Below are positions 8,691-62,512 of a stretch of 64,000 bases of DNA, one piece after another (position 1 is the stretch's first letter; every line of letters starts with the position of its first letter). The notes under the pieces were generated by a model that saw only the letters and a program-made list of their open reading frames with translations, had not been told where the DNA came from and made no database searches. A program made the position numbers and the translations under genes. Source of the stretch: Sialis fuliginosa (Eukaryota > Arthropoda > Insecta > Megaloptera > Sialidae); NCBI GenBank assembly GCA_961205875.1, contig OY540816.1, forward strand, positions 15,696,701-15,760,700, in the 5' to 3' direction.

Positions 8691-9194
8691 ATATATTATT
8701 TTATTCATACAATTTTTAAAAAAATATTCAAATTTGAAATTTCCATTGAGTGAAATAATTATATAATCTTTGTATCAACATAACAATTAAGACGCAACCC
8801 ATCTCCGCTAAGGTACGGCTAAAATGAGATTTGTGATGCACAAGTAAATTTTGGCGTTACAACGTCCAGATTAAAAAAATTGTTAATTTGTAGGTAAAAT
8901 TATGTGCAACATAATCACTAACTGTGAGTATATAATTTTGGCGCTACACCGGATTAAATAATTGTATGATTAGTTCGAGGAACTATTAAATTAAATTAAA
9001 TTTTAAAGAAATGCCACTCAAGGCTAAAAATATTAAAATTATTTTGACACAAAAAATTACTAAAAAAAGAAAATTTGAATACATATGCAAGTTCTTTAAT
9101 TAGGTTTTGATTTAATTGTTAGCAGAAGATACGAATTCCTGTGAATATATGTATCGCCTGATTTAGAAAAAGGATATCCTATGATATATAGGTA

Positions 9195-9964
9195 TAGTGT
9201 GTCCCGGGATAGATGTAACAAGAGGTGTAATGAACTAACACCCTGTACAGGACCGAATGGACGATTATTGGTATAGGGTCAACTGGGGTAAAAGTGAAAC
9301 AAAATACAAATCTTTCATGTTTTTTGACAGATAACGATACAAATTCATACTTTAATATTTTGTTCTACTAGATGCGCTTATGAATAACCATTTTAAATAC
9401 ATATGTATGTACGTCATTTGAACTGCACGATACAACACGGACTTTAAAAATGAAAAAAGTGTGTTTCATTTTTAACCTCTAATTTGGGAAAAAGTGAAAC
9501 AGGTAAGAGAATAAGTGAAACAGGCCTCTAATATTATATTTATAATATAATATTTCTCGAAAAATTAAAAGAAAAACTACAAAGGCAATTTTGATTTATC
9601 TTCTTAATTAATAGCTGAGCTATACAGAAAGTTATGTGCAAAGAATTAAAATTTAATTCACACGTTTTGACATCGACTAACAGGGAAATCTGTAGGGGTG
9701 ACACATCACTTATTAGGCGATTCATATTTTCAGGTCGCTATAACAAACTTTTAATGATGATGTCAGTTTTTATAATTCTCCTATAAACAAATTAGTTTTT
9801 TAGTTGCAAGCTTGTTTCACTTTTAACCCATTTTTTTAGAGTTTCATCGACCCTACCTTAGTTTTGCATCAAGCAGGACTCGATCCGTAAATATCAAACT
9901 AAAATTAAAAAAAAAAATTGTTCATTACACCTATCTTGTTACATATATCCTAGGACACACTGTA
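9195..9964. mobile_element. TIR element with a second element nested inside
   Basis: The outer ends TAGTGTGTCC..GGATA and TATCC..GGACACACTG are inverted and flanked by TA, compatible with a Tc1/mariner-type insertion. Inside, TAGGGTCAACTGGGG and CATCGACCCTA (about 9274-9855) form another inverted pair, with AAAAGTGAAACA and its complement repeated within. The inner element appears to have inserted into the outer one. No transposase frame. Confidence 0.55.
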
Positions 9965-27544: not shown

Positions 27545-30500
27545 ATGAATCATTTGTATATAGCTTGTGGTGCAATTGTTGTTATAATTATTGTATATTT
27601 AGTGATTAGTTGGATTAATATTTTATTCAAAAGAAGCCGAAATTTCAAAGACAAAATTGCTATTGTAAGTATTTTGGTTTTAAAATTTGATATATGCAGA
27701 GCTATTTTTAACTAGGTAAAATCAATTAACTTAAAAATAATTAATAATTTTAAAATTAATATACAAATAAATTTTTTTAAATTACATCGGATTACAAAAA
27801 TTATCAATTACGAGTTTCGAGAATCCTTTTTTGGATTATTTTTTTAACGGAATGATCTTATTTATTTCCTGTACAGAAAGTTTATATAGTGATACAATAT
27901 TTTAGAAAATTTAATAAACTATAAGCATGTGAAATTCGAATTGCGCTTATTGCACGAGCGACGCAAAAGAAAAGTCGGCAAAAAATATGAACGACAAAGA
28001 TTGATATTTTGTATTGGTTGGTATAGAACAATAATCATATGAAACCCGACTTGCATTTAGCACTTTTTTTTATATGTATTATACTGTTTATCAAAATATT
28101 GTACCTATTTATGTTGTATTTCATATAAGTATATTACTTATTCCTACATTAGAGTGTCCTTACAAATTGAAATATAACCGGGACACCCGCTCAATCTGTT
28201 TTTGTGATAAAAAAATAAGGTAACCATAAACTTAACGTTGACAATTAATACTACTTTTTTCTCAATTTTTCCCGTTTTTCCTGTATATTTTGACTTTTTC
28301 CGGTAACTGGCAAATTTTTAAAGAAGAAAAGAAAATCGATTTTTTATTAAATTTGACAAATTTTTATATTTAATTGATTTTCTCTGGAGATGGAATTTAT
28401 AAATTAATTTAATTAAAAAAAACTGTAGTCTTCTATAAAAATTTACCAGCTACCAGAAAAAGTCATAATATACAAGAAAAATGGAAAAAATTAGTATTTT
28501 TTAGAAAAACGTGAAAATTGCTATTTAAAATACGCGTTAAATTTAAAGTACATTGAGCATAGCTTAAATATTAATTGTAAACGCTGAATTTATGGCTACC
28601 TTACTTTTTGGTCAAAAAGAATACAATTGTGGGGGCGTCCCATTAATATTTCTATTTGTACGGGCACCCTAGTCTACATATTATGAAAACATCGACTTCC
28701 AAATGGATCATTTTGACTCATTTCATTGTGATTGTTAACAGGTTACTGGCGCTGGGGGTGGCTTAGGAAGATGTATCTGTTTAGAGTTAGCTAAAAATAA
28801 ATGTAATATTGCCTGTGTGGACATAAACAGTTCTGAAAATGAAGAAACTGTGGCTAAGATATTGAAATTGACTAAAAATAAAGTTCTCGCTAAAGCATAC
28901 ACATGCGACGTATCAAAACTAGAAGAAGTGAAACAATTAGCTAAACAAGTCCATAGTGATTTTAAACATGTTGATATACTAATAAATAATGCTGGTATAA
29001 TACAAGTGAAACATTTTGAAGACTTTAGTGAAGAATTTCTAAAGAAGATCATGGATGTTAATGTTCTTTCACATTTTTGGGTAAGTGAAAACCTGTATTA
29101 TTTTAGTATTGGAGGAAACTGTGATTGTTTTTGAAAATTTAAAATTTCCACATTATATTTTACTTTCATGAATCCTTGATACACAGAAAACTCAAAGTTC
29201 GATTAATCAACCTTGATTTATTAGTTGGATCTGTCTAATATAGAAGATAGTCCCATATAAAATACATCAAAATCGTGTTTAGAAATGGGGAAAGTTAAAA
29301 AACGCATGTAATGAAAAGAAAAAACCGCAAAATAATGTTTTTTGACAAAATATCAACAAACCTTAAACATTTTTAAGTACCTACAAAGTTTTTTTTTTAA
29401 ACACCGTGTTGCTGTTTTGTCTTTATAATGTAAATACGGAATTACATTTTCTATAAAAAGGGTCAGTAGTAAAATATTTCGTTTAGAAGATACATACAAA
29501 TATCTTTTATGCAGAAATAATTTTTTTTTATAATATATGTCACTTTTTACTTTTAGTTATAAAACACCTTAAGTTCAAGCTTTTACTTTTTTAAATAAAT
29601 TCTTATATATTTATACAGTAACTAAATGATTCTACGTCTTATTTTCTTGTATTTTAGTCGATATTTGTATGACGAGTTGAAGTTCACTGCAGGAAATATC
29701 ACTAAACAATTTCGAATTTTTGATTTCGATAGAAAATGACGTTAAAAGTTTAAATTTTCAAACCGCAGGTCTGTATCTCAAACCGTTCTCAAGATATAGC
29801 CTCTCAAAGTTTTAGTTTTTTTCAAATTCTTGGAGAAAAAAGGCCATAACTTTTGAACGCGTAGTCGGAATTGATTTTAGTTGACGGATTTGAAATCAGC
29901 GTGTCAAAATCTATATAATGACATGTATAATACTTTAAAATCCGACAAAAATTTTTTGCCAAAAATCGACATTTTTTTAAGGTATACCCCTTTGAATTTT
30001 TTCGATTTTTCGCGAAATTTTTTTTTTCGAGTTTAAAAGTATTATACATGTCATTATCTAGATTTTGATACGCTGATTCCAAATCCGTCAACTAAAATCA
30101 ATTCCGACCACGCGTTCAAAAGTTAGGGCCATTTTTTTTTAAATTTTGAAAAAACTGAAATTTTGAGAGGCTATATCTCGAGAACGGTTTGAGATACAGA
30201 CCTGCGGTTTTTTTAAATTTAAACTTTTCACATCATTTTCTATACAATAAACATACTTTTAACGAAATCAAAAATTCAAAAAATTTTAGTGAAATTTCCT
30301 GCAGCTAACTTCAACTCGTCATACAAATATCGACTAAAATACAAGAAAATAAGACGTAGAGGTATTATAGTTTTATAATTGAGCGTGTAAATTAATATTG
30401 AATGCTATTTTTGATTTTTGGTTAAAATGTTTGAGTTGCGCATAATGATGAATATTCTAATATTTTTAAATTATGTATTAACTGAAAACACAGATTTGTA

Positions 30501-36909: not shown

Positions 36910-37203
36910 CTATACCTTTTCAACTTCAAATTGAGACTAATCAATTTCAAATTGGGAATAATCAATTTCAAATTGAGACTAAACAATTTCATATTGGGAA
37001 TAATCAATTTCAAATTGAGACTAAACATTTTCAAATTGGGAATAATCAATTTCAAAGTGAAGTTGATTGTTCCCAATTTGAAAATGTTTAGTCTCAATTT
37101 GAAATTGATTATTCCCAATATGAAATTGTTTAGTCTCAATTTGAAATTGATTATTCCCAATTTGAAATTGATTAGTCTCAATTTGAAGTTGAAAAAGGTA
37201 TAG
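36910..37203. repeat. 294-bp palindrome built from alternating 22-bp motifs
   Basis: An almost perfect inverted repeat centred near 37057. Each arm is a run of ATCAATTTCAAATTG-type units whose spacer alternates between GGGAATA and GAGACTA. Both strands are open for about 100 codons purely because of this symmetry. Helitron-like 3' sequence follows directly. Confidence 0.85.
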
Positions 37204-38130: not shown

Positions 38131-38559
38131 AAATTTTTTTGGTCATTGAAAATCTGTAAGACGTGTGATAACAATACAATTTATTTAAAAAAATAGGTAT
38201 TTTTTGTGTCGTTAAAAAATCAGTGTGACACCCGCCTAATGTGTAAAAATTAAACCTGTTGACTTTTTTGCATGGGAGGGGGACACTCTCGATTTCCTCC
38301 CCTATTATCCCTCCCCTAGAGACACCATTATAAGATTTGATCAGCGTTAATGTGAGTCAAGTATGTACTATGTATTAGTTTAAATATTTATTTTTATGTA
38401 ATATTCGATTTATTGTTTTAAACAAAATTTAAAAATAATAATAATAAAAATTTTAAAAATAATAAAACGCATTTAGTGGGACAATTATAAAAATTAAAAT
38501 ATAAAGTAGCGAATAAAAACTTTAAGATGAGAGACGAATTATGATGCCGATGGTAGACA

Positions 38560-39730
38560 TACTTACACACACGTACTCGAGTTGACAGTTTAGTCTGTGT
38601 CTTGTAATTGTTGTTTAAGTAATATTTTAAGTGTTTTTTTTGTTCTACAAGTATAAATATATGTGCAAAAGTTTTTTTACAAAGTGCGAAACTATTGTTA
38701 CAATTATTAACAATGTAAGCGAATTAGGTAAGTGTAATTTATATTAGAATTTTGAACTAGTTACACTGGCGTATTAATATTGCTACATGAGCTATATCTG
38801 CATATCTACAACGTTAAATATATATTATATCTTATGTTGTTTTCATTAATTAATTTTTTGCATAATTATTTTGAGTGTGCTAATTCTTCTAGTAATATTT
38901 ATTTTAATAGAAGATCGTCTATTGTAAAATGTAAAAAGTAACAATTAAAAATAATTTTTTTATAGTGTTACCTGCCATTGTTTTCAAATTACACACACAT
39001 ACATGCACTCAAAAACACACACACACACACAGTCCTTGTGACGTATGGCGCTTTATTCTGGCGGTCTTTTTGTGCTTAAAGTAATAAAGTCATATTCTAA
39101 GTATTTTTCGTTTTACAAATCTAAATATATGTGCAAAAGTTTCTATACAAAGTGCGGAAATATTGTCATTTTGAATTTCAACGTATCGTGTACGAAATTT
39201 AACGTATTAGTGTAATTTATATTTGAAATATATACCTATAAAATGGCGTGCCTATATGTACATATATGTAAGTACTTATTACTTATGCATCATCGTATCT
39301 ACTAACCTATGTTAGTTATATCGTATGAACATTTTATTCATTAATTTATTTACTTTTGTTCATACGATATACATTTTATTCATTAATTTATTTTACAAAA
39401 TTTGCTAATCCTTTCAATAATTTTATTTTTTAAATGTTAGACATTTTTTTTATAGTGTTGTCTACCACCTTTTCAAATCACACGTATACTCTCACACATA
39501 GTTCAGAATTCAGATGGCGGTTTTTTTTTGTGCAGTATTCATGTGATTATTTTAGTTGGTTTCATTTGTTTTACAAATCTAAATATATGTGCAAAAGTTT
39601 CTCTACGAAGTGCGGAATTATTGTCAATATAAATAACAACATATTGTGTACGAAATTTTGAGTATTAGTTTAGTTTATATTTGAAAAAGGTACAGTGCTG
39701 ATCCGTATTAGTACATCTATATGTAAAATA
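38560..39730 (+). repeat. Three diverged tandem repeats, ~400 bp
   Basis: TAAATATATGTGCAAAAGTTT followed by ACAAAGTGCG occurs near 38655, 39122 and 39582. Each lies downstream of a TTTTTATAGTGTT.. and CACACA segment or its equivalent. The copies differ more than those of the adjacent 3-kb array. A GATCAGCGYYAATGTGAGT motif also recurs at 38338 and 40227. No coding frame is supported. Confidence 0.6.
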
Positions 39731-40800
39731 GGTACGTTATATTATTTTGTAACTTTATTACAAAATAAAATTGTGTACCTACATTATCGTGAATGCAAAA
39801 TTAAATATATTTTTAATTAAATATGTTTTTCCATATATAATAACACAAAATAAATAATAATATATAAATAATAAATAATATATATAATAATAAATAATAC
39901 CCCATTTGAAAGTGCTAGAAAATTTTATTAGCTCTTTTATAATACCGGACATTAAACAAAATGCAATAATTGATATTTTTTTTCAAATTTTGATTGTTAA
40001 ACATATTGTAAGTTCAAAGTGCCTTTGGTATCAACATTGTTGTAAATTCGATTTGCGGTTATATACACTATATTTTACATTATTTTGACATATTTTATAA
40101 TTTTATTTCAAATTTTAACAACAATTGAAATACAACAACATATCATTTAATTTGAGGTTATAATCATATTTGTTGTACTTGTGCATTATATTCCCGGTAT
40201 TTGTAGATATACAAGTATTATATGTTGATCAGCGCCAATGTGAGTGAAGTGTGTACTATTAATTTAAATATTTATTATTGCATATTCGTTTGCTAAACTG
40301 CTAAGCGGTATTAAAAATTATTCATAAGGCGAAGATTTAATTGTTTTGAAGAGAGACCGGAATATAATTATTATATAATATTTACGCCAGTAAATACCTA
40401 AATTAAAAAAAACAATGATGAGACTGATTTAATGTTTTTAAACCTTGTGGATTTCATTAAAAAATGTAAACAAAACTATCTTTTGTATTAAATTTCAAAT
40501 TTTTACGTCTAATAGTTTCAGAGAAAATTGCTTGTGACAGACGGACGGATGGACACTAAAGTGATTCTAATAGTGCATCGTGTTCACTGAACACTAAAAA
40601 TACATTTTTTTATTATAATAAAACTTAATATTTAAAAATCATTTTATTGCATAACCTAAAGAAAATAAAAACCAAAAGCATTAGTATTTAAGGACCATTA
40701 GTATATACTTATATAATATTTAAACTAAAAGTACACTTTACTCACATTGGCACTTCTGCAAATGCCGGGGATAAAATGCACAAAGCGCAATTAGGTACCT

Positions 40801-43640
40801 TTTTTATTAATATTAATTTTCTCTATTTTCAGATCACTGACTGGATCTCAAGCTTACATTTATTTCACGTTCACTAATATGATATTAAAGAACGAAGAAA
40901 GAAAATTCGATGAGTTAGTGTTGTAAATGTTAAGTGAAAAAAGTGTGTTTAAAATTAAGTGAAATGGGCAATTTTAAAAAAGTGAAGTGCATGTATAAAA
41001 TATTGTGTTTGTTTATTGTGTGTTCACCATAGGAGTCACCCCCACTTTTCAAGGAGTAAAAGCTTTATAAAGGTTTGAGTTATTAATATTAACAGTGTGC
41101 TTAGTAGGTATTTGGTCCAACGTTTCACCCTTTCCCCAAGCGGTCGTAGGGCTTGATCAATAGGCCCTCCGCTTACCAATCATTTTATTATTATATCGTA
41201 TTTCACCAAACAGATACATTGATCTGTTTTGAGACTTACGAATTTATATTATTTTGTAGTATAATTTAGCTGTTCTTCCGATTTAATTGGTTTCCGATCT
41301 AGCGAGGAACCCTGTCTGTTGGGATCTAGAAGATCTGTTATCGGACAGTGTTAGTCGTTGGGTTCTTTTAGGGTGGGAGGGCGGAATATTTGAACAACAA
41401 ACGACGAACCGTGGTCCGCTGCCCATTTGGAATGTCTTAGGTAGGGACGTGAGAGGTAGACTTGTTTGATATTTTGTACGTCAATGGACTTTAAGTAAAA
41501 CAAGCGATAAGTAATCTTGTCTAGGATTTCTTAAGCGATATCTCACTGAATAGTGATTAGACGATATATATATCGCTGGAAGAAACTAGCGAAAAGACCG
41601 TTATCTGCTTGAATTAGCTGGAGAAAGTCTAGGCGATGTCTGCCTTGAGCGGGTGCGTTTTGGGCGGCACAAGTAGAGACACTGACTACACAACCAACAC
41701 CCTATATTGTAAACCTCATCCACCTCACACAATGTATGTATATATGTATATTTATTTCAGGATTTGGACTGCTGTGTCGTTTTCCAGACACGGCGGCATC
41801 GAGGGATTTTTGTTTGTTGAATCTTTTTAAAATAAATTTTTAATTGGTGTTTTTTTTTAAAATGAATTAGTTAGTTTTATGAGTAAATTAGAATATCGCG
41901 GAACTTTGTCCTCCAGAACAGATACTGAATAGCACACTTAGGTTAATGCGGAGTTGCTCTCTTCCTATGGACTATAAATATGTATTTATTTAGTTTATAA
42001 GTACTAATCGTTTTTTTTATTTTTCAGGTTTTTTATAAATAATCCCCTATCTCTAACTCGTTATTTATAATATCTGTTATGTTAATTAAAAAGAAAATAA
42101 AACTGAGTAATCTTGTTTTATTTGAAATTTTAAGAAGATATAAATATTTTTCTAAAGATTACTGAGTTTTCATTTTCTAGTCATTTCTAGGAAGAGAGTA
42201 TTTTTTATTTCAGGAAAAGTTTGTGAAAAAAAAATAGTTTGAAAAGTGCCTATTTGCAAAAAAAATATCTAATCAAATCAGTGTTTCTCAACTTTTTTAA
42301 CAACATGAAAATAAAATACCGTAATTAAACAAGAATAAATCAAACATTATAAACAGAATATCTACAATTTATTTTGAATCTGAAAAATTTAAATTATTGA
42401 CACGAGAAACACTGTATAGATTATATATTTTGCGATTTAATAATTTTTTATTAATATAATTTTCTCTGTTTTCAGATTTTCAACCATTCCGCAAGAGTAT
42501 TTTTCTTTTTTCTGACAAAATTGAAGTTATCAAGAAAAGGATACAAGAATTGCTTAGCTTTAATTTGCATCGCGATAATACAGAGTTGGATTGATTTTTA
42601 ATCTGTTGACAATCAATGCAACTCTGTATAATGATTATTCACATATTTTTTATTAATATAATTTTCTGTTTTCAAATTTTCGACCGTTCCGCAAGAGTAT
42701 TTTTCTTTTTTCTAACACAAAATGGAAGTTATCAAGAAAAGAAATCAAAAAATACAATAAAAATTGCTTTGTTTGAATTTGCATCGCGATAATACAGGGT
42801 TGGATTGATTTTTAATCTGTTGACAATCAATGCAACCCTGTATAATGATTATTCACATAGTTATTTTTTATTAATATAATTTTCTGTTTTCAGATTTTCG
42901 ACCGTTCCGCAAGAGTAATTTTCTTTTTTCTAGCACAAAATGGAAGTTATCAAGAAAAGAAATAAAAAAAAAAAAAAAAAATTGCTTAGTTTTAATTTGC
43001 ATCGCGAGAATACAGGGTTGGATTGATTTTTAATCTGTTGACAATCAATGCAACCCTGTATAATGATTATTCACATATTTTTTATTAATATAAATGATCT
43101 CTGTTTTCAGATTACGGGCGGATCTTTAGCTGATATTTATTTTTTTGGTTTCAATTTACTAGCTAGCAAGCACTTTCAAATGAGGTTTCAAACCTATCGG
43201 ACAGTTCACTTGCAGTTCCATGAAATGTTTGACAATTTTCGCGTACGCATGGTATGTAAACACCAACGGTATTAAAACAGTGGCGATATTATGAAAATTA
43301 TTTTGTATGGTCAGTACCGCCAACTGTGTTACAATGATTTGGTACGCGTGGTATGTAAACACTAACGGTATTAAAACAGTGGCGATATCATGAAAATTAT
43401 TTTGTATGGTCAGTACCGCCAACTGTGTTACAATGATTTGAAGTATCACTGCTCTAAATTCCATAACTAATCCATAGATACTATCACAGAATTAATACCC
43501 CAAAATTGAAGTTATCAAGAAAAGGAATCAAAAAATACAAGAAGAACTGCTTAGCTTTAATTTGCATCGCGATAATACAGAGTTGGATTGATTTTTAATC
43601 TGTTGACAATCAATGCAACCCTGTGTAATGATTATTCACA
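40801..43640 (+). repeat. 3-kb tandem array, unit 1
   Basis: Begins with an acceptor-like TTATTAATAT..TCTCTATTTTCAG|ATCAC. Then comes a GC-richer core (about 41000-41830), nearly unchanged in all units, with stop-free frames at 41287-41469 (opens with TTG) and 41636-41830. Acceptor-like TTTCAG follows near 41760 and 42028, AATAAA at 42096-42101, four hairpin sub-repeats from 42580, and the 99-bp repeat module (two copies). It lacks the ~180-bp segment (TTATGCCTGGAACAC..) that units 2-4 have. High nucleotide identity of the frames reflects recent duplication and is not evidence of coding. Confidence 0.85.
43113..43500. repeat. Module with 99-bp repeats, in array units 1-3
   Basis: Begins TAGCTAGCAAGCACTTTCAA and ends TTAATACCCCAAAATTGAAG. 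Internal 99-bp repeats start at GGTATGTAAACACCAACGG (43251, 43350). Also at about 45998-46490 and 49415-49905. A single-repeat relative stands alone at 62297-62512, so the module derives from a dispersed TIR element. Minus-strand frames over it (for example 46045-46449) merely read the repeat. Confidence 0.7.
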
Positions 43641-46625
43641 TATTTTTTATTAATATAAATGATCTCTATTTTCAGATCACGGGCGGATCTTAAGCTGATA
43701 TTTTTTTTTTGGTTCACGTGTATATTCTCAAAGAATGAAGAAAGAAAATTCAAGGAGTAAGAGTGTTAAATATTAATAGTGAAAAAAGTGTATTTAAATA
43801 AGCTTTTATGCCTGGAACACATCGTCAAGTGTTTGTCGAATATGGCTGAATGCCGAGTCGTAAACGGTATCAATATTCGTGTTAGTTTGTCTTCATTAGT
43901 AAAATGTTAAGAACATTCGGGCCGTTGTCACGTGAAAATCGTCGCGATGTGTGTCCAAGGCATTGGTATTTAATATTAATAGTGAAAAAAGTGTATTTAA
44001 AATTAAGTGAAATAGGGCAATTTTAAAAAAGTGAAGTGCATGTATAAAATATTGTGTTTGTTTAGTGTGTGTTCACCATAGGAGTCACCCCCACTTTTCA
44101 AGGAGTAAAAGCTTTATAAAGGTTTGAGTTATTAATATTAACAGTGTGCTTAGTAGGTATTTGGTCCAACGTTTCACCCCTTCCCCAAGCGGTCGTAGGG
44201 CTTGATCAATAGGCCCTCCGCTTACCAATCACTTTATTATTATATCGTATTTCACCAAACAGATACATTGATCTGTTTTGAGACTTACGAATTTATATTA
44301 TTTTGTAGTATAATTTAGCTGTTCTTCCGATTTAATTGGTTTCCGATCTAGCGAGGAACCCTGTCTGTTGGGATCTAGAAGATCTGTTATCGGACAGTGT
44401 TAGTCGTTGGGTTCTTTTAGGGTGGGAGGGCGGAATATTTGAACAACAAACGACGAACCGTGGTCCGCTGCCCATTTGGAATGTCTTAGGTAGGGACGTG
44501 AGAGGTAGACTTGTTTGATATTTTGTACGTCAATGGACTTTAAGTAAAACAAGCGATAAGTAATCTTGTCTAGGATTTCTTAAGCGATATCTCACTGAAT
44601 AGTGATTAGACGATATATATATCGCTGGAAGAAACTAGCGAAAAGACCGTTATCTGCTTGAATTAGCTGGAGAAAGTCTAGGCGATGTCTGCCTTGAGCG
44701 GGTGCGTTTTGGGCGGCACAAGTAGAGACACTGACTACACAACCAACACCCTATATTGTAAACCTCATCCACCTCACACAATGTATGTATATATGTATAT
44801 TTATTTCAGGATTTGGACTGCTGTGTCGATTTCCAGACACGGCGGCATCGAGGGATTTTTGTTTGTTGATTCTTTTAAAAATTAATTTTTTATTAGTGGG
44901 TTTTTTTTTTTTAATTACTTGGTTACTTTCATAGTCAGTTTGTTGAGTAAATTAGAATATCGCGTAACTTTGTCCTCCAGAACAGATACTGAACAGCACA
45001 CTTAGGTTAATGCGGAGTTGCTCTCTTCCTATGGACTATAAATGTTTATTTATTTAGTTTATAAGTACTAATCATCTTTTTTATTTTCAGGTTTTTATTA
45101 TAAATAATCCCCTACCTCTTACTCGTTATTTATAATATCTGTTATGTTAATTAAAGAGAAAATAAAACTGAGTAATCTTGTTTTATTTTAACCACGTTAG
45201 TAAATTTTTTATTATCTATTTGTAATTTTAAGAAGATATAAATATTTTTCTAAAGATTACTGAGTTTTCATTTTCTAGTCATTTCTAGGAAGAGAGTATT
45301 TTTTATTTCAGGAAAAGTTTGTGAAAAAAAAATAGTGTTTGAAAAGTGCCTATTTGCAAAAAAAATATATAATCAAATCAGTGTTTCTCAACTTTTTTAA
45401 CAACATGAAAATAAAATACCGTAATTAAACAAGAATAAAACAAACATTATAAACAGAATATCTACAATTTATTTTGAATCTGAAAAATGTAAATTATTGA
45501 CACGAGAAACACTGTATAGATTATATATTTGCGATTTAATAATTTTTTATTAATATAATTTTCTCTGTTTTCAGATTTTCAACATTTCCGCAAGAGTATT
45601 TTTCTTTTTTCTGACAAAATTGAAGTTATCAAGAAAAGGATACAAGAATTGATTAGCTTTAATTTGCATCGCGATAATACAGGGTTGGATTGATTTTTAA
45701 TCTGTTGACAATCAATGCAACTCTGTATAATGATTATTCACATATTTTTTATTAATATAATTTTCTGTTTTCAGATTTTCGACCGTTCCGCAAGAGTATT
45801 TTTCTTTTTTCTAACACAAAATGGAAAATATCGAGAAAAGAAATTAAAAAAAAAAAAACAAGAAAAATTGCTTAGTTTGAATTTGCATCGCGATAATATA
45901 GTGTTGGATTGATTTTTAATCTGTTGACAATCAATGCAACCCTGTATAATGATTATTCACATATTTTTTATTAATATAAATGATCTCTGTTTTCAGATTA
46001 CGGGCGGATCTTTAGCTGATATTTATTTTTTTGGTTTCAATTTACTAGCTAGCAAGCACTTCCAAATGAGGTTTCAAACCTATCTGACAGTTCACTTGCA
46101 GTTTCATGAAATATTTGACAATTTTCGCGTACGCATGGTATGTAAACACCAACGGTATTAAAACAGTGGCGATATTATGAAAATTATTTTGTATGGTCAG
46201 TACCACCAACAGTGTTACAATGATTTGGTACGCGTGGTATGTAAACACTAACGGTATTAAAACAGTGGCGATATTATGAAAATTATTTTGTATGGTCAGT
46301 ACCGCCAACTGTGTTACAATGATTTGGTACGCGTGGTATGTAAACACTAACGGTATTAAAACAGTGGCGATATCATGAAAATTATTTTGTATGGTCAGTA
46401 CCGCCAACTGTGTTACAATGATTTGAAGTATCACTGCTCTAAATTCCATAACTAATCCATAGATACTATCACAGAATTAATACCCCAAAATTGAAGTTAT
46501 CAAGAAAAGGAATCAAAAAATACAAGAAGAACTGCTTAGCTTTAATTTGCATCGCGATAATACAGGGTTGGATTGATTTTTAATCTGTTGACAATCAATG
46601 CAACCCTGTGTAATGATTATTCACA
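43641..46625 (+). repeat. 3-kb tandem array, unit 2
   Basis: Same layout as unit 1, plus the ~180-bp segment (about 43800-43970) flanked by a direct repeat TATTAATAGTGAAAAAAGTG. Core frames recur at 44336-44518 and 44685-44885. Three hairpin sub-repeats and three copies of the 99-bp repeat. Nearly identical to unit 3 over most of its length. Confidence 0.85.
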
Positions 46626-49600
46626 TATTTTTTATTAATATAAATGATCTCTATTTTCAGATCACGGGCGGATCTTAAGCTGATATTTCTTTTTTTGGTT
46701 CACGTGTATATTCTCAAAGAATGAAGAAAGAAAATTCAAGGAGTGAGAGTGTTAAATATTAATAGTGAAAAAAGTGTATTTAAATAAGCTTTTATGCCTG
46801 GAACACATCGTCAAGTGTTTGTCGAATATGGCTGAATGCCGAGTCGTAAACGGTATAAATATTCGTGTTAGTTTGTTTTCATTAGTAAAATGTTAAGAAC
46901 ATTCGGGCCGTTGTCACGTGAAAATCATCGCGATGTGTGTCCAAGGCATTGGTATTTAATATTAATAGTGAAAAAAGTGTATTTAAAATTAAGTGAAATA
47001 GGGCAATTTTAAAAAAGTGAAGTGCATGTATAAAATATTGTGTTTGTTTAGTGTGTGTTCACCATAGGAGTCACCCCCACTTTTAAAGGAGTAAAAGCTT
47101 TATAAAGGTTTGAGTTATTAATATTAACAGTGTGCTTAGTAGGTATTTGGTCCAACGTTTCACCCCTTCCCCAAGCGGTCGTAAGGCTTGATCAATAGGC
47201 CCTCCGCTTACCAATCACTTTATTATTATATCGTATTTCACCAAACAGATACATTGATCTGTTTTGAGACTTACGAATTTATATTATTTTGTAGTATAAT
47301 TTAGCTGTTCTTCCGATTTAATTGGTTTCCGATCTAGCGAGGAACCCTGTCTGTTGGGATCTAGAAGATCTGTTATCGGACAGTGTTAGTCGTTGGGTTC
47401 TTTTAGGGTGGGAGGGCGGAATATTTGAACAACAAACGACGAACCGTGGTCCGCTGCCCATTTGGAATGTCTTAGGTAGGGACGTGAGAGGTAGACTTGT
47501 TTGATATTTTGTACGTCAATGGACTTTAAGTAAAACAAGCGATAAGTAATCTTGTCTAGGATTTCTTAAGCGATATCTCACTGAATAGTGATTAGACGAT
47601 ATATATATCGCTGGAAGAAACTAGCGAAAAGACCGTTATCTGCTTGAATTAGCTGGAGAAAGTCTAGGCGATGTCTGCCTTGAGCGGGTGCGTTTTGGGC
47701 GGCACAAGTAGAGACACTGACTACACAACCAACACCCTATATTGTAAACCTCATCCACCTCACACAATGTATGTATATATGTATATTTATTTCAGGATTT
47801 GGACTGCTGTGTCGATTTCCAGACACGGCGGCATCGAGGGATTTTTGTTTGTTGATTCTTTTAAAAATTAATTTTTTATTAGTGGGTTTTTTTTTTTTAA
47901 TTACTTGGTTACTTTCATAGTCAGTTTGTTGAGTAAATTAGAATATCGCGTAACTTTGTCCTCCAGAACAGATACTGAACAGCACACTTAGGTTAATGCG
48001 GAGTTGCTCTCTTCCTATGGACTATAAATGTTTATTTATTTAGTTTATAAGTACTAATCATCTTTTTTATTTTCAGGTTTTTATTATAAATAATCCCCTA
48101 CCTCTTACTCGTTATTTATAATATCTGTTATGTTAATTAAAGAGAAAATAAAACTGAGTAATCTTGTTTTATTTTAACCACGTTAGTAAATTTTTTATTA
48201 TCTATTTGTAATTTTAAGAAGATATAAATATTTTTCTAAAGATTACTGAGTTTTCATTTTCTAGTCATTTCTAGGAAGAGAGTATTTTTTATTTCAGGAA
48301 AAGTTTGTGAAAAAAAAATAGTGTTTGAAAAGTGCCTATTTGCAAAAAAAATATATAATCAAATCAGTGTTTCTCAACTTTTTTAACAACATGAAAATAA
48401 AATACCGTAATTAAACAAGAATAAAACAAACATTATAAACAGAATATCTACAATTTATTTTGAATCTGAAAAATTTAAATTATTGACACGAGAAACACTG
48501 TATAGATTATATATTTTGCGATTTAATAATTTTTTATTAATATAATTTTCTCTGTTTTCAGATTTTCAACATTTCCGCAAGAGTATTTTTCTTTTTTCTG
48601 ACAAAATTGAAGTTATCAAGAAAAGGATACAAGAATTGCTAAGCTTTAATTTGCATCGCGATAATACAGGGTTGGATTGATTTTTAATCTGTTGACAATC
48701 AATGCAACTCTGTATAATGATTATTCACATATTTTTTATTAATATAATTTTCTGTTTTCAGATTTTCGACCGTTCCGCAAGAGTATTTTTCTTTTTTCTA
48801 ACACAAAATGGAAAATATCGAGAAAAGAAATAAAAAAAAAATAAAAAAATAAATTGTTTAGTTTGAATTTGCATCGCGAGAATACAGGGTTGGATTGATT
48901 TTTAATCTGTTGACAATCAATGCAACTCTGTATAATGATTATTCACATATTTTTTATTAATATAATTTTCTGTTTTCAGATTTTCGACCGTTCCGCAAGA
49001 GTATTTTTCTTTTTTCTAACACAAAATGGAAGTTATCAAGAAAAGAAATCAAAAAATACAAGAAAAATTGCTTTGTTTGAATTTGTATCGCGATAATACA
49101 GGGTTGGATTGATTTTTAATCTGTTGACAATCAATGCAACTCTGTATAATGATTATTCACATATTTTTTATTAATATAATTTTCTGTTTTCAGATTTTCG
49201 ACCGTTCCGCAAGAGTATTTTTCTTTTTTCTAACACAAAATGGAAAATATCGAGAAAAGAAATTAAAAAAAAAAAACAAGAAAAATTGCTTAGTTTGAAT
49301 TTGCATCGCGATAATATAGTGTTGGATTGATTTTTAATCTGTTGACAATCAATGCAACCCTGTATAATGATTATTCACATATTTTTTATTAATATAAATG
49401 ATCTCTGTTTTCAGATTACGGGCGGATCTTTAGCTGATATTTATTTTTTTGGTTTCAATTTACTAGCTAGCAAGCACTTTCAAATGAGGTTTCAAACCTA
49501 TCGGACAGTTCACTTGCAGTTCCATGAAATGTTTGACAATTTTCGCGTACGCATGGTATGTAAACACCAACGGTATTAAAACAGTGGCGATATTATGAAA

Positions 49601-50043
49601 ATTATTTTGTATGGTCAGTACCGCCAACTGTGTTACAATGATTTGGTACGCGTGGTATGTAAACACCAACGGTATTAAAACAGTGGCGATATTATGAAAA
49701 TTATTTTGTATGGTCAGTACCGCCAACTGTGTTACAATGATTTGGTACGCGTGGTATGTAAACACTAACGGTATTAAAACAGTGGCGATATCATGAAAAT
49801 TATTTTGTATGGTCAGTACCGCCAACTGTGTTACAATGATTTGAAGTATCACTGCTCTAAATTCCATAACTAATCCATAGATACTATCACAGAATTAATA
49901 CCCCAAAATTGAAGTTATCAAGAAAAGGAATCAAAAAATACAAGAAGAACTGCTTAGCTTTAATTTGCATCGCGATAATACAGAGTTGGATTGATTTTTA
50001 ATCTGTTGACAATCAATGCAACCCTGTGTAATGATTATTCACA
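46626..50043 (+). repeat. 3-kb tandem array, unit 3 (longest)
   Basis: Core frames recur at 47322-47504 and 47671-47871. Five hairpin sub-repeats, the most in the array, account for its extra length over unit 2; the 99-bp repeat is present three times. Almost no substitutions separate its core from that of unit 2. Confidence 0.85.
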
Positions 50044-52545
50044 TATTTTTTATTAATATAAATGATCTCTATTTTCAGATCACGGGCGGATCTTAAGCTG
50101 ATATTTTTTTTTTGGTTCACGTGTATATTCTCAAAGAATGAAGAAAGAAAATTCAAGGAGTGAGAGTGTTAAATATTAATAGTGAAAAAAGTGTATTTAA
50201 ATAAGCTTTTATGCCTGGAACACATCGTCAAGTGTTTGTCGAATATGGCTGAATGCCGAGTCGTAAACGGTATAAATATTCGTGTTAGTTTGTTTTCATT
50301 AGTAAAATGTTAAGAACATTCGGGCCGTTGTCACGTGAAAATCATCGCGATGTGTGTCCAAGGCATTGGTGTTTAATATTAATAGTGAAAAAAGTGTATT
50401 TAAAATTAAGTGAAATAGGGCAATTTTAAAAAAGTGAAGTGCATGTATAAAATATTGTGTTTGTTTAGTGTGTGTTCACCATAGGAGTCACCCCCACTTT
50501 TCAAGGAGTAAAAGCTTTGTAAAGGTTTGAGTTATTAATATTAACAGTGTGCTTAGTAGGTATTTGGTCCAACGTTTCACGCCTTCCCCAAGCGGTCGTA
50601 GGGCTTGATCAATAGGCCCTCCGCTTACCAATCACTTTATTATTATATCGTATTTCACCAAACAGATACATTGATCTGTTTTGCGACTTACGTATTTATA
50701 TTATTTTGTAGTATAATTTAGCTGTTCTTCCGATTTAATTGGTTTCCGATCTAGCGAGGAACCCTGTCTGTTGGGATCTAGAAGATCTGTTATCGGACAG
50801 TGTTAGTCGTTGGGTTCTTTTAGGGTGGGAGGGCGGAATATTTGAACAACAAACGACGAACCGTGGTCCGCTGCCCATTTGGAATGTCTTAGGTAGGGAC
50901 GTGAGAGGTAGACTTTTTTGATATTTTGTACGTCAATGGACTTTAAGTAAAACAAGCGATAAGTAATCTTGTCTAGGATTTCTTAAGCGATATCTCACTG
51001 AATAGTGATTAGACGATATATATATCGCTGGAAGAAACTAGCGAAAAGACCGTTATCTGCTTGAATTAGCTGGAGAAAGTCTAGGCGATGTCTGCCTTGA
51101 GCGGGTGCGTTTTGGGCGGCACAAGTAGAGACACTGACTACACAACCAACACCCTATATTGTAAACCTCATCCACCTCACACAATGTATGTATATATGTA
51201 TATTTATTTCAGGATTTGGACTGCTGTGTCGTTTTCCAGACACGGCGGCATCGAGGGATTTTTGTTTGTTGATTCTTTTAAAAATTAATTTTTTATTAGT
51301 GGTTTTTTTTTTAATTACTTGGTTACTTTCATAGTCAGTTTGTTGAGTAAATTAGAATATCGCGTAACTTTGTTCTCCAGAACAGATACTGAATAGCACA
51401 CTTAGGTTAATGCGGAGTTGCTCTCTTCCTATGGACTATAAATGTGTATTTATTTAGCTTATAAGTACTAATCATCTTCTTTTTTTCAGGTTTTTATAAA
51501 TAATCCTCTATCTCTTACTCGTTATTTATAATATCTGTTATGTTAATGAAAGGGAAAATAAAACTGAGTAATCTTGTTTTATTTGAAATTTTAAGAAGAT
51601 ATAAATATTTTTCTAAAGATTACTGAGTTTTTATTTTCTAGTCATTCCTAGGAAGAGAGTATTTTTTTATTCCAGGAACAGTTTGTGAAAAAAAGTGTTT
51701 GAAAAGTTCCTATTTGCAATAAAATATATAATCAAATCAGTGTTTCTCAACTTTTTTAACAACATGAATATAAAATACCGTAATATGAATCTGAAAAATG
51801 TAAATTATTGACACGAGAAACACAATGGATTATATATTTTGCGATTTAATAATTTTTTATTAATATAATTTTCTCTGTTTTCAGATTTTCGACCGTTCCG
51901 CAAGAGTATTTTTCTTTTTTCTGACAAAATTGAAGTTATCAAGAAAAGGATACAAGAATTGCTTAGCTTTAATTTGCATCGCGATAATACAGGGTTGGAT
52001 TGATTTTTAATCTGTTGACAATCAATGCAATTCTGTATAATGATTATTCACATATTTTCTTATTAATATAATTTTCTGTTTTCAGATTTTCGACCGTTCC
52101 GCAAGAGTATTTTTCTTTTTTCTAACACAAAATGGAAGTTATCAAGAAAAGAAATCAAAAAATACAAAAAAAATTGCTTTGTTTGAATTTGCATCGCGAT
52201 AATACAGGGCTGGATTGATTTTTAATCTGTTGACGATCAATGCAACTCTGTATAATGATTATTCACATATTTTTTATTAATATAATTTTCTTTTTTCAGA
52301 TTTTCGACCGTTCCGCAAGAGTATTATTCTTTTTTCTAACAAAATTGAAGTTATTAAGAAAAGGAATCAAAAAATATAAGAATTGCTTAGATTTTTTTTT
52401 TTTTTTTTTTTAATTTAAATTATTGGCCATCGGGCGTAGCCCCTCAGCCAGACTTAAAGATTTAATTTGCATCGCGATAATACAGGGCTGGATTGTTTTT
52501 TAATCTGTTGACAATCAATGCAACCCTGTGTAATAATTATTCACA
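50044..52545 (+). repeat. 3-kb tandem array, unit 4 (shortest)
   Basis: Has the ~180-bp segment and core (frames at 50739-50921 and 51088-51288) and three hairpin sub-repeats, but no 99-bp repeat module. The last sub-repeat is interrupted near 52390-52460 by a T-tract followed by ATTGGCCATCGGGCGTAGCC, an insertion. More diverged than units 2 and 3. Confidence 0.85.
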
Positions 52546-52640
52546 TATTTTTTATTAATATAATTTGCTCTATTTTCAGATTATGGGCTGGATCTCAAGA
52601 TTTAATATTTATTTATATAACTTTGGTCTTTCAGAATCAG
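52546..52640 (+). repeat. Start of a fifth array unit, then divergence
   Basis: TTATTAATATAATTTGCTCTATTTTCAG and GGATCTCAAG.TTA match the first ~60 bp of unit 1 better than the internal units. The array therefore ends in the same diverged variant with which it begins. Confidence 0.6.
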
Positions 52641-52865
52641 TTCTTAAGTTATCAAAAAATATACATGTGTACATCGGATTTTAAAATATTGTATAAGATG
52701 AAATTAATCATTGATTTTTATGTTTCAGATAATTATTTTATTAAAACTAAAATATTTCTAAGGGGGCCCCTTATATTTCAGATTGTTTGGTTTATGTGAT
52801 GTTATGTTTATGTTACGTATTTCATGTTTTTTTTAATTGAGTTACAGCGCACCGAGAACCGACAT

Positions 52866-53060
52866 TCTAGCTGTTTTTTTTTGCATGTATTATTATGTTT
52901 TGTATAATTTTTTTTGCATGTGTTATAATGTTTTATGTTTTGTTTTTGCATTCATTTTGTTTTTTTTTTTGCATGCATTTTATGTTTTTTTTTTGCATGC
53001 ATTTTATGTTTTTGTTTTTTTTTGCATGCATTTTATGTTTTATGTTTTGGGTTTTGTTAT
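52866..53060 (+). repeat. Minisatellite with GCATGCATTTTATGTTT units
   Basis: T-rich units of about 25-30 bp with TTTTTTGCATGCATTTTATG are repeated several times. All three plus frames are open here because of composition, not coding. Confidence 0.7.
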
Positions 53061-54000
53061 GTGTTTGTGTTGTCCTGTCCGGGCCGTGCGCGGAAGCCTG
53101 AAACCGCGTATACGGCGCGTCCCCCGGTTGGCCGATGGGGGAAGCCCCTTGTTAACAGAAATACACCTTAGAGTTGTTGGCAATATTATTTGTGTTCAGT
53201 CTTCTAAACATTTATAAATAGGTACATTTGATTTTGTATCAATTATTAATTTCTGGGAACAAGGGGTCACTCCTAATATACTGAATATGGAGTCGTGGAC
53301 CAAACAGGCATTACCTTCCTACAGGTCGAGCTGAAACTTTCTGTGTGTTGAAATATTGTAATTACTATCAATCTCATGTAAATGGATTCAAAAAAAGTAA
53401 TTAAAACAAGATATGAAGAAAATTCTTATCTGTATTACTAAGAAAAGAACACCAAAAGAGGAAAAAGAAGAAAAAAGTAAGTATGTAGTTTTTACCTTTT
53501 ATGTATAATATTTACATACAATACCCTCAAGCAGGTACCGTTTTTTAAACGGGCCTGCGATGTACACCGTGTTCCGTGCCATCAACCTTCCCCCCACTTA
53601 AATTATAGAAAATTTTGAAAAAGTGTAAGTTCTTCTTTCAATCCTGATAATTTTCTATCAATCTATACCTAATTCTCAATGTTCATGATTTTTTTTCTGA
53701 TTTTTCTGGGCAATCATTTAAGTGATAAGAGTAGGGGACAACTTTTAAGCGTTTTTCTCAAAAAATGTTTAAAAAAAGATCATATATATTATTCGTGTTT
53801 CAATAAACTTTCATTTGATACCCTACATGATGCCTTTGAAAAAACTTGTTTTTTCATTTCCCAATTTACCCCCGGAAATTAACCTCCAGAATCAAACACA
53901 CACTATCTCTGTGCTAAATTTCAAATTTTTATGTCGAATTGTTTCAGAGAAAATAGCCAATGATAGACGGACGGACAGACACCGAAATGATTCGCTTTAA
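53061..54000. other. No gene seen; dispersed repeat at the end
   Basis: A short GC-richer patch (53070-53150), then AT-rich sequence. 53890-54000 carries a TCAGAGAAAATAGCC..GACGGACGGACAGACAC repeat that is also found at about 40495-40570. Confidence 0.4.
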
Positions 54001-57186: not shown

Positions 57187-60100
57187 ATGGATTATTTATA
57201 TACAACGTGTGGTGTAACTGTTTTTATAATTATTATAAATTTTGTGTTTAATTGGATAAATATTTTGTTAAAAAGAAGACGGACTTTCAAAAACCAAGTT
57301 GCTGTTGTAAGTACATAAATAATTTTAAAAATTAGGTAAAAGGAGGTAGAAGAATTTTATTAACTAGGAAAAATATTATAATTTAAAATGTAAACTTCGA
57401 AAAAAAATAGTTAACTAACCAAGTGAATTAAAACCATTAAACATAAAAACCGAATACCATTTTTATTATGAATCTAGCTGTATTAGTTTTTATGAAAATA
57501 TCATATCGTAGCAGGGTAAAATTTGCCTCACGATATCAGGTATAATTTGTATGGGTAATTTTTTATATATATTAAACTTATTAGGTATATTCCTTAAAAC
57601 TAAAACAATAAATTTTCTTATACAACACTATAATAACGTGAAATCCTACTTGCACTTACTTATGTACGGTTTAGTCGAGTCAAGCTAAGGAAAAACCAGT
57701 ACAAAGATTTGAATGACAAGTAATGATATTTTGTATTGATCTATACGGAACACCAATCGCGCGAAACCTAACTCGCACTTCATGTATGTATGTATGCTTA
57801 TAAAAACATCGTTAATGTTTTACTCATTTCATTGTAATTTTTAACAGGTTCCTGGTGCGGGAGGTGACTTAGGAAGATGTATATGTTTTGAGTAAATGAA
57901 AAATAAATGTGAAATTACTTGTATGGACCTAAATAGCTCTAGCAATGAAGAAACCGTGGCTAAGATATTGAAATTGACAATTGAGTCATCGTCAAAACTC
58001 AAGGCATACACATATGACGTAATGAAACCAGAAGAAGTGAAACAACTAGCTAAAAATTTCTACAGCGTTTTTAAACATGTTAATATATTAATTTAAAAAT
58101 GTTAGTATTGTAAATTTTAAATAATCGCTTCGGATTGTGCGAAATTGGGGTTCGCACACAGGCCCTGAGAGAGCTTCAGTAAGGCCCGAGCCAAACAAAA
58201 TTTTGGGGGGCCCATATCCCTCCGTTTGGCGAGCACAAAGAAAATCTTAACAAATTCCGTATTGTCCTTTTTAGTAAATAAACAACAAAATAATAGAAGT
58301 GTATTAAAACATACTTCTAAATGAATAATTTTCACACATTTATTTGTAATTGTTAACAGGTTACTGGTGCTGGGGGTGGCTTAGGAAGATGTATCTGTTT
58401 AGAGTTAGCCAAAAATAAATGTAACATTGCTTGTGTAGACATAAACAGCTCTGGCAATGAAAAAACTGTGGCTATGATATTGAAAATGACTGAAAATAAT
58501 GTCCTCGTCAAAGCATACACATGCGACGTATCAAAACCAGAAGAAGTGAAACAATTAGCTAAACATGTCCACAGCGATTTTAAACATGTTGATATACTAA
58601 TTAATAATGCTGGTATAATACAAGTGAAACATTTTGAAGATTTTAGTGAAGAATTTCTAAAGAAGATCATGGATGTTAATGTTCTTTCACATTTTTGGGT
58701 ATTTAAAAAACTGTATTTTTTAGGATAGGACAAAGCTATTTGATCATTTCTGAAAACAGATAGATTTTTGATCTCCAAATTCAAAATTTCCTCATTATTA
58801 ACTATCTCGGAGACAATTTTTTGTCCCTATTATCGCAATATGCAGAAGTAAAATTTCATAATCCACATATTTTTGTTATACAGACAATAAGGCAATTTCT
58901 TCCGTTGATGCTGCAGAGAAACAAAGGTTTCATTGTAAGTATATCCTCTTTTGCTGGACTCATAGGATTGAGAGGTTTAATACCTTACTCTACATCTAAA
59001 TTTGCCCTTACAGGTAAGAATAGAAATATCAAATAAGATATTTATTATTTATAGTCTGGGATATTGTAAATACACCTTTGCAGTTATTAAATATAGTTTA
59101 GTTTTAGACACGGCAGAATTTTTACTATGAAAATATAAATATATACCTATTTTACTTGTAAGTAATATTTCAGCCCCTTTCTTTATTAATTTTATAAACC
59201 ATTTGTTTTCATGTAAATACATCGAATGTATTCAATGTAATGATGACCATCTGGCAAAATAAACTATTAGATTAAACACTTCTCCACTTTGTATTAAAAA
59301 TCCAGAAACTGATATTATTCCATGTGGAGCTGTAAGAGTGCGTATCGAAATCTCTGGGAGGTCGATGTGGAAATGAACAGCTTAATATTAATGTATATTA
59401 CATATATTATATAGGGTGGATATAATATCATGTGTGTAAGCCTAGGAACTATCTAGGAAACACGTGTTGTGTTTTCAGGGTCTCGTGAGTGTCACGACCC
59501 CAGACCAGTATTCACAGTCTGGCCACAGTGTTTATAATGTTGTGCTGACTGTATAATACAGGAATATGAATGTCAAATACAAAAAAAATCAATTACTTTT
59601 TCCACACCTTCCTAATTTTTTAAAATATTTACGAAAAATTGAATTTGGTTACTTTTTGTGGGAAAGAGGTGAAATATTATTATATAAAAGTAAAATAAGT
59701 TATCTTAAATAAATTAAGTTTTGTTTTTGTTTTGTTTTCAGGATTAATGTCCGCTTTCAGAAATGAATACCGATTACGAAACATAAATATAAAAACTCTG
59801 TCAGTTCATCCTGGTACTATGAATGGGGGCATGTATCTGACAAGACAGTCCAATAATCCGTATGTATATTGTCTATTTATTTATTAATACTAGTGTTAAG
59901 AACAATTTATAAAATCTAATACCATTTGTGTTGTTACGAGTATTTTGGAATATTTTTAAACTTTGGAATTGAACAACAGCCATACAGTCAGCAAGCCATA
60001 CATATAATATTCTATTTTCAGAATTGCACATGCTGCAGCCCTCGATATGGAAACTGCTGCAAATAATATCGTGAATGCTATCAAAGAAGAAAAACACATG

Positions 60101-61070: not shown

Positions 61071-62296
61071 TCTATAACGTTTCATGTCCACCTATCATGG
61101 TATCAATCCGCTTTGACAAAGTTTCAAACCTTATTCGTTCTCAGATATGAATTTTTGGAGTTTCATACAATCAACAGTTGTTTAATATACATATGATCCA
61201 ATTAATACAATTAATTTATTATTATTATACACTGAAAATAGGCAACTATATATTTCAATCGTAGATACAAACCAAAATTTTTATTTTACCTGTATTCGTT
61301 ATTATTTTTCAGTATCATGAGATGGCGCACATAACGAGATTAATTCCAATTTAATTTCAACGTCAATACACACAACGTTCGTGGCAAACTGTTTACCTAT
61401 CTACATTCTACCTTGTTGAACAAATAACTATTTTTTATATATTATATTCTAAAAATAAAATTGGAATCTTCATGAACATTTCTTCGTATGTTACAGTTCT
61501 TATGATTCAAATTAAAATAGTACCTAATCTAATTATTAATAACTTTATAAGATTTAACATTATAATCCGAGGCTCGGTATAGCTGCACCTCTACTCACCC
61601 CTTGTCACCGAAATTTTGATTAACTGTATAATATAAAAAATACAAACCCAATTTACTTTTTTGCATATTTTAAATTTATTTAGAGTAGAAAATTAATGAT
61701 AATCGAAATATCGTTAAAAAAGGCCTTAATTAACCAACCCTACTTTAGAATATTGTGTACTATATCTTAAACGTAAATAGTACATTTAAAAAAACATTAA
61801 CATACGCATCTTGAACTTTTTTCAAATATTTATAATGAATCTTTAAAATGTTCACTGTTATGTTTGTTACAGTATTGATGAAGGAAACAATTTGTATTGA
61901 ATTTGAAAAATATACTTTTTCCGAATCGACTCAGTTTTAGTTAAGACAATAATTAAAAATTTACTTCATTAATTATCACACGTTCTTGGCTCATGTCCAA
62001 AACGTCATTCCTATCCACAAAACAATAAACAGAAATCTATTTCAAAGATGTCTGTTAGTAATTTTATACAGTTGTTGGTAAATTTAAATCAAATTGATCT
62101 AATCATGTTATTCTTAAAACAACGAAAATAAATAAACGAACGAAAGAGTTTCGTTCTAGTTTTTTTTTAATGGATTGATCATTGAATGTTTGATTTCATT
62201 ATTGACATTATAATGATAATATGAACATATAAGTACCTACAGTATATTAATTGGAAAGTAAAAATAATTTAAAATATTTAATTTGTTAGCTAACAA

Positions 62297-62512
62297 GCAA
62301 TTTCAAATGGGGTATCAAGCCTAACTATATGACAGTTCCCATGAAGTGTTTGACAAGTTTGTCTTATGCGCGGTAAGTGAACAGCTATGGTATTAAAACA
62401 ATGGTGATATTATGAAAATTATCTAGCTTGGTCATATTCACCAACTCTGTTATAATATTCCACAACAAATCCAAATATGTTATCGCAAAATTAATACCCC
62501 GTTGAAAGTACA
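62297..62512. mobile_element. TIR element related to the array's 99-bp module
   Basis: TTTCAAATGGGGTAT mirrors ATACCCCGTTGAAAG. Inside, GACAGTTC.C..AAGTGTTTGACAA, a GTAAGTGAACAGC stretch and GGTATTAAAACAATGG align with the module at 43160-43500, with only one copy of the 99-bp repeat. Confidence 0.65.

Follow-up and report, generated by a model that had tools for sequence, protein, structure and literature searches.

A putative multicopy family of structured non-coding RNA genes, arranged in tandem arrays in the genome of Sialis fuliginosa

Insects are known to carry multicopy genes for long non-coding RNAs (lncRNAs), such as the Ya family of the aphid Myzus persicae, whose members lie in tandem and have three exons. 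Non-coding loci that span 10-20 kb and contain tandem repeats are also familiar, hsr-omega in Drosophila and similar lncRNA loci among them, hsr-omega being one locus with short (~280-bp) repeats. A third parallel is the tandem miRNA cluster in an intron of rodent Sfmbt2 where, according to the part of the source used here, hairpins have multiplied within one transcript region (PMC3212979). These are among the closest parallels to an array in Sialis fuliginosa, which we consider likely, on the strength of its sequence, to be one locus of an unnamed and still putative family of multicopy structured non-coding RNA genes, read from the + strand.

The window, that is, the whole stretch of 64,000 nucleotides that was analysed (C8:15696701-15760700), contains four head-to-tail units between 40.8 and 52.6 kb (Table 1). 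Such a four-unit array had been proposed in an earlier note on this DNA, and both self-BLAST and TRF recover it, with a unit spacing of 3.0-3.4 kb (from core starts found by BLAST with window 44120-45112). Units 2 and 3 are as close to identical as that note had claimed (43243-45999 and 46228-48982 agree at 98.99% over 2.76 kb in self-BLAST) and the remaining long matches between units are ~93-99% identical. The array is opened by a partial unit, and a similar piece stands at the start of other arrays of the near family (see below); its 3' end consists of sub-repeats near 52.6 kb. Two further features noted earlier, a GC-richer core and an acceptor-like site in each unit, are confirmed: the cores have 36-38% GC per kb versus 24-31% in the kb after, and ATTTCAGG is found shortly before the block at 44816 in all 38 cores examined, the remaining one of the 39 cores being without a match to the search string. 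This site lies somewhat farther from the same block in the diverged family. The AATAAA proposed for every unit was seen in 30 of 38 units, which says little because 0.5-0.76 would be expected per 250 bp by chance anyway. As for the neighbourhood, a C2H2 zinc-finger array built from 84-bp repeats (28-residue fingers) occupies 146-1675 on the - strand, where a 416-aa open frame (425-1675, -) has zinc-finger Pfam matches. Three stretches, two before the RNA array and one beyond it (14847-15276, 28682-29134 and 57813-58730), are 79-93% alike, and matches to short-chain dehydrogenase PF00106 in two of them (28739-29134 and 58357-58728) point to a duplicated gene.

Table 1. Features of the array and of the duplicated block around it (window coordinates)
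Feature	Position	Strand	Remarks
Entire duplicated block (upstream repeats, array and terminal block)	38300-53403	+	homology with other near loci
Upstream block with repeated element (near 38.64, 39.11, 39.57 kb)	38300-40110	+	
Partial unit opening the array	40800-40953	+	79-80% identical to the matching part of later units
Core, unit 1	41071-42047	+	putative structured RNA; model R1 match 41490-41643
218-bp sub-repeats, unit 1	42548-43113	+	each with 74-nt hairpin (from 42567, 42781, 42999); TRF
99-bp repeats, 2 copies	43243-43440	+	3 copies each at 46129-46425 and 49547-49843; TRF
Single hairpin before core 2	43564-43637	+	cores 3 and 4 are preceded by such copies at 46549 and 49967
Core, unit 2	44120-45112	+	putative structured RNA; reference copy
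Intron-like stretch inside core	44722-44809	+	begins GTAG, ends TTATTTCAG
Hairpin copies, unit 2	45666-45958	+	45666, 45885
Core, unit 3	47106-48098	+	putative structured RNA
218-bp sub-repeats, unit 3	48634-49417	+	four hairpins (48653, 48871, 49085, 49303); TRF
Core, unit 4	50523-51506	+	putative structured RNA
Last hairpin copies and array end	51976-52542	+	51976, 52191, 52469
Terminal block: two GC-richer patches	53066-53330	+	nearly identical at eight near loci

The core is far from confined to the window. In the 392-Mb assembly (20 contigs), a 1-kb piece of it has at least 65 matches (40 of 56 candidates scored), and a profile search with model R1, a 154-nt core domain, over the window and 19 other stretches (235 kb) gave 39 cores at 12 loci, which is a lower bound for the loci. 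Matches occur in 18 of the 20 sources, the weakest with an E-value of 5e-27, 18 of the 39 sequences having built the model and so matching by construction; the 39 copies of the domain represent 18 distinct sequences. These cores fall into a near family (four in the window on C8, six at C13:15.80 Mb, two each at C10:9.33, C10:11.73 and C11:7.83, three at C12:17.48, four at C14:9.56 and one at C10:19.94) and an old, diverged family with 64-72% identity at four loci (11 at C14:11.13-11.17, two at C14:15.44 and one each at C13:17.54 and C13:14.95). The largest array, at C14:11.13-11.17 Mb (L022-L026), belongs to the old family and lies on the - strand of its contig, with units 3.2-3.9 kb apart and, among the matches listed, long internal matches of 89-99%. 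Together with the near arrays, it shows that tandem arrays exist in both branches. At the C12 locus, a ~145-bp piece from the core start is itself tandemly repeated several times (L014:5340-6328 and 8802-9498).

Comparison between the two families shows what is preserved in the core. In 50-base windows, identity to the old family peaks at 80-92% and drops to 32-60% in the troughs, GC-richer blocks staying nearly unchanged while AT-rich linkers diverge. The intron-like stretch (Table 1) is conserved at near loci, yet diverged and of other lengths at old loci where both its sides are conserved, which is how an intron would behave and suggests that it may be spliced out.

The conserved blocks appear to be parts of a folded RNA. 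Alignment A1 comprises 16 core sequences chosen from the 39, and RNAalifold predicts 98 pairs on the full alignment, seven of them changed on both sides. For counting, a structure of 142 pairs was computed without gap-rich columns; it was derived from the very rows on which it was counted, and related rows are not independent. Of 2203 cells, 96.1% are paired versus 94.4% after shuffling (none of 500 as high) and 39-43% when the structure is slid along the alignment. Cells changed on both sides number 46 versus 17.5 (again 0/500), and covariation amounts to 0.122 versus 0.096 (0/500 as high; at most 0.057 when slid). Base pairs in the core are thus kept by compensatory change, as in a structured non-coding RNA gene. 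The excess of pairs changed on both sides is modest (10 versus 7.2 in letter-shuffled alignments, 8/500 as high), and further pair types are not enriched in this fold (45 versus 47.1, a value reached or exceeded in 492 of 500 shuffles for the observed count). The best helix, 257-279/308-330, has 19 pairs, is 99.3% paired and includes replacement of GC by AU and, several times, by GU; other best helices are 288-293/297-302, 441-453/647-659, 471-484/632-644 and 523-526/586-589. For 12 of the 16 rows, consensus energy is -212.6 on the + strand versus -184.8 on the - strand. Shuffling the columns of the + strand 40 times gave a mean of -153.0 (sd 5.6, best -167.1), but the number of both-side-changed pairs on these 12 rows stays within column shuffles (12 versus a mean of 7.7 and a maximum of 16). 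One core sequence folded by itself has a z-score of -3.39 (0/20 shuffles). Predicted separately, the near and old structures contain 162 and 207 pairs, respectively, and have only 40 in common, although the near structure fits 622/765 cells of the old rows and the old one 1440/1841 cells of the near rows (37-45% when slid). The global architecture is therefore uncertain, and the case is carried by a few helices (11, 12, 15, 16, 21 and 22): support is good for the predicted local helices, and the overall fold is to be taken as provisional.

There is no sign that the core encodes a protein. Counting all row pairs, which are not independent, gap lengths are multiples of three in 173/974 cases (18%) between near and old rows and 113/416 (27%) between near rows, 33% being expected at random. 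The longest stop-free stretches are 54-105 codons per core of at least 700 bp, in a frame that varies between copies, so gaps and frames alike reveal no conserved reading frame in the core, as would be the case for a non-coding RNA gene. With no Pfam match above the curated cut-off for two ORFs of the block, a protein-coding gene was rejected. Two frames of 143 aa on the - strand (46045-46476 and 49463-49894) derive from the 99-bp repeat and arise because its length is a multiple of three; the single Pfam match of the first, XFP_C, scores 20.2 bits, below the cut-off of 23.4.

Nor was a described RNA recognised. Rfam 15 has no match at the gathering threshold in the 64 kb, and a relaxed search of two stretches gave nothing credible below it (best Termite-flg, 23.6 bits for a gathering score of 40, E 0.079, at 53072-53146; SCARNA7, 11.5 bits for 65), so a known Rfam RNA was rejected as well. 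The window has no tRNA. Exact matches numbered zero in viral contigs for one core pattern and one terminal-block pattern, and zero in prokaryote genome contigs for one core pattern. Among the matches listed by a literature search there was no report of the core RNA, and a search with the letters of core and hairpin listed papers that are unrelated by title. The earlier statement that neither a known transposon nor a known satellite was recognised was followed up through Rfam (at threshold), Pfam (the two ORFs) and the behaviour of the sequence, and the novelty of the putative RNA family is limited to Rfam 15 and this literature search.

The array is part of a larger duplicated block of ~15 kb. 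Homology to other near loci starts at ~38.0-38.33 kb (38.55-38.6 kb for C14 and C11) and reaches its downstream limit at 53.2-53.57 kb. The array and the terminal part are found again at seven other loci of the genome, and the upstream part (~38.3-40.1 kb) at six other near loci, only partially at C14:9.56 and C11; it was not found in the examined flank of C10:19.94. The upstream element is present in one to several copies per locus, with a period of ~430 bp in the C14 locus. Five near loci share a patch (39090-39210) with 94-99% conservation, and a donor-like AG/GTAAGTG at 38726-38734 is partly conserved. In the terminal block, the two patches lie at ~53.07-53.17 and 53.25-53.31 kb, and two more, diverged copies are found inside the C14 array; no structure is claimed for this block because its fold is not significant (z -1.44) and no compensation is visible in the two C14 copies. 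Immediately before the block, at 36920-37192, two neighbouring arrays with units of 42 bp, mutual reverse complements by eye, form a large fold-back, followed by what we take to be a retroposon-like tail.

The recurrence of much of this block at several near loci on six contigs, with roughly 66-95% identity, is what one would see if the block were a large transposable element, non-autonomous and containing tandem repeats, with the conserved parts being signals for its machinery and the loci its insertions. A 100-bp direct repeat, 81% alike, that flanks the array (40468-40567 and 53894-53993) could be cited in the same sense, although its first copy lies inside the block and it is probably a dispersed repeat. 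The earlier note had named a core that matches a known transposon family with many genomic locations as a sign against its proposal, and with 12 loci this applies in part. However, the homology has ragged ends, scattered upstream from ~38.0 to 38.6 kb and likewise downstream (few-kb flanks compared), and limits that vary by locus are easier to reconcile with a copied segment than with an inserted element whose ends are fixed. What is conserved follows RNA helices, the + strand being preferred, the loci are few and their units are homogenised by locus, and we regard a transposable element as unlikely.

Besides the core, the units contain a second folded element, a 74-nt hairpin of the form ACAGGGTTG-ATTGATT...AATCAAT-CAACCCTGT within the 218-bp sub-repeats, whose free energy of -26.8 kcal/mol compares with a mean of -11.2 (sd 3.0) in 300 mono-shuffles. 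The cassette of hairpin sub-repeats reported earlier is real; the 99-bp repeats fold only modestly. Outside the array, 62277-62459 is a diverged copy (75-76%) of the sequence that runs into the 99-bp repeat, and another is found close to the C13:17.54 Mb core (L020:7328-7535). Across the eight near loci, 60 copies of the hairpin (48 distinct, mean -24.5 kcal/mol) retain standard pairs in 1013/1042 cells, with nearly invariant arms and stem and a variable central mismatch, loop and flanks. It is thus a stable single hairpin with conserved arms and a variable loop, like a microRNA precursor. Since covariation is weak (shuffles as high in 11/1000 for pairing and 47/1000 for double changes), its putative resemblance to a pre-miRNA, which is our reading, rests on shape and pattern of variation. 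Multiplied hairpins that vary like pre-miRNAs might suggest that they are the actual product, of a miRNA or hairpin-siRNA cluster, and that the core is mere sequence of the host transcript. Yet no hairpin was found at the four old loci, where the core is conserved, which argues that the core is under constraint of its own, and Rfam has no miRNA match at gathering score in the window. We find it improbable that such a cluster is the main product.

How alike the units of a locus are is seen in a tree of 38 cores, in which grouping by locus takes 11 changes for 12 groups, the minimum (shuffled mean 25.3). Long branches separate the near from the old family, the two C14:15.44 units fall within the C14:11.1 group, and support for the group of the window itself is 78/79 only. 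The tree supports the view that each locus has been largely homogenised within itself, as had been proposed for the array in the window. A selectively neutral satellite or segmental duplication, whose similarity would come from homogenisation, agrees with this strong grouping (homogenisation alone keeps the units of one locus alike) but is very improbable, as it accounts neither for the conservation in blocks nor for the covariation seen between the near family and the old one, and core identity to the window is 91-95% at C10:9.3, C10:11.7, C12 and C13:15.8 and 81-86% at C14:9.56 and C11, versus 76-78% and 69-72%, respectively, for the upstream block.

A structured non-coding RNA gene family is thus the reading that we prefer, and the earlier idea of a non-coding, tandemly amplified RNA locus gains from a fold that beats shuffles, covariation, a + strand preference, the lack of a reading frame and a hairpin repeated 60 times. 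In such a family, (i) each unit would yield an RNA body of ~0.6-1 kb that folds into a multi-helix structure, (ii) this body would be what selection preserves, as covariation and block conservation suggest, (iii) the block would be transcribed as a spliced or cut precursor from which the structured body is released, and (iv) the pre-miRNA-like hairpins between bodies would most likely be cut from the same primary transcript. Homology between loci shows that a locus of ~15 kb, with its upstream donor-like element and terminal block, has been copied between chromosomes, and the tree suggests that unequal exchange or conversion has multiplied the units within each locus and homogenised them. Many copies would probably give a high dosage of RNA, as for rRNA or snRNA genes, and the RNA could serve, for example, as a ribonucleoprotein scaffold or as the host of a miRNA cluster.

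OLE, GOLLD and ROOL, bacterial or phage RNAs of several hundred nt, were first recognised through covariation, and Rfam gave no gathering-score match here. To our knowledge, large animal non-coding RNAs seldom show covariation. It is conceivable, and we say so tentatively, that the family represents a novel class of large structured RNAs in animals, with a body of >550 nt and a conserved multi-helix fold, tandem in both near and old branches and joined in the near branch to a miRNA-like hairpin that multiplies, a single locus thus giving a scaffold-type RNA plus small RNAs. The 39 copies of graded divergence in one genome are a natural alignment for solving the fold, and arrays that combine dosage, concerted evolution and attached hairpin amplification could be a good system for studying the origin and spread of structured RNAs and miRNAs. 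Should the family be confirmed, the annotation of this animal group may lack an entire gene family. Unlike hsr-omega, it occurs at several loci, and its units span several kb, each containing a conserved body that is predicted to fold. For Ya, neither dispersed loci nor a covarying core are described in the part of a review used here (PMC10174565). Unlike the hairpins of the Sfmbt2 cluster, as far as the part of PMC3212979 cited above goes, those of S. fuliginosa adjoin a separately conserved structured RNA body.
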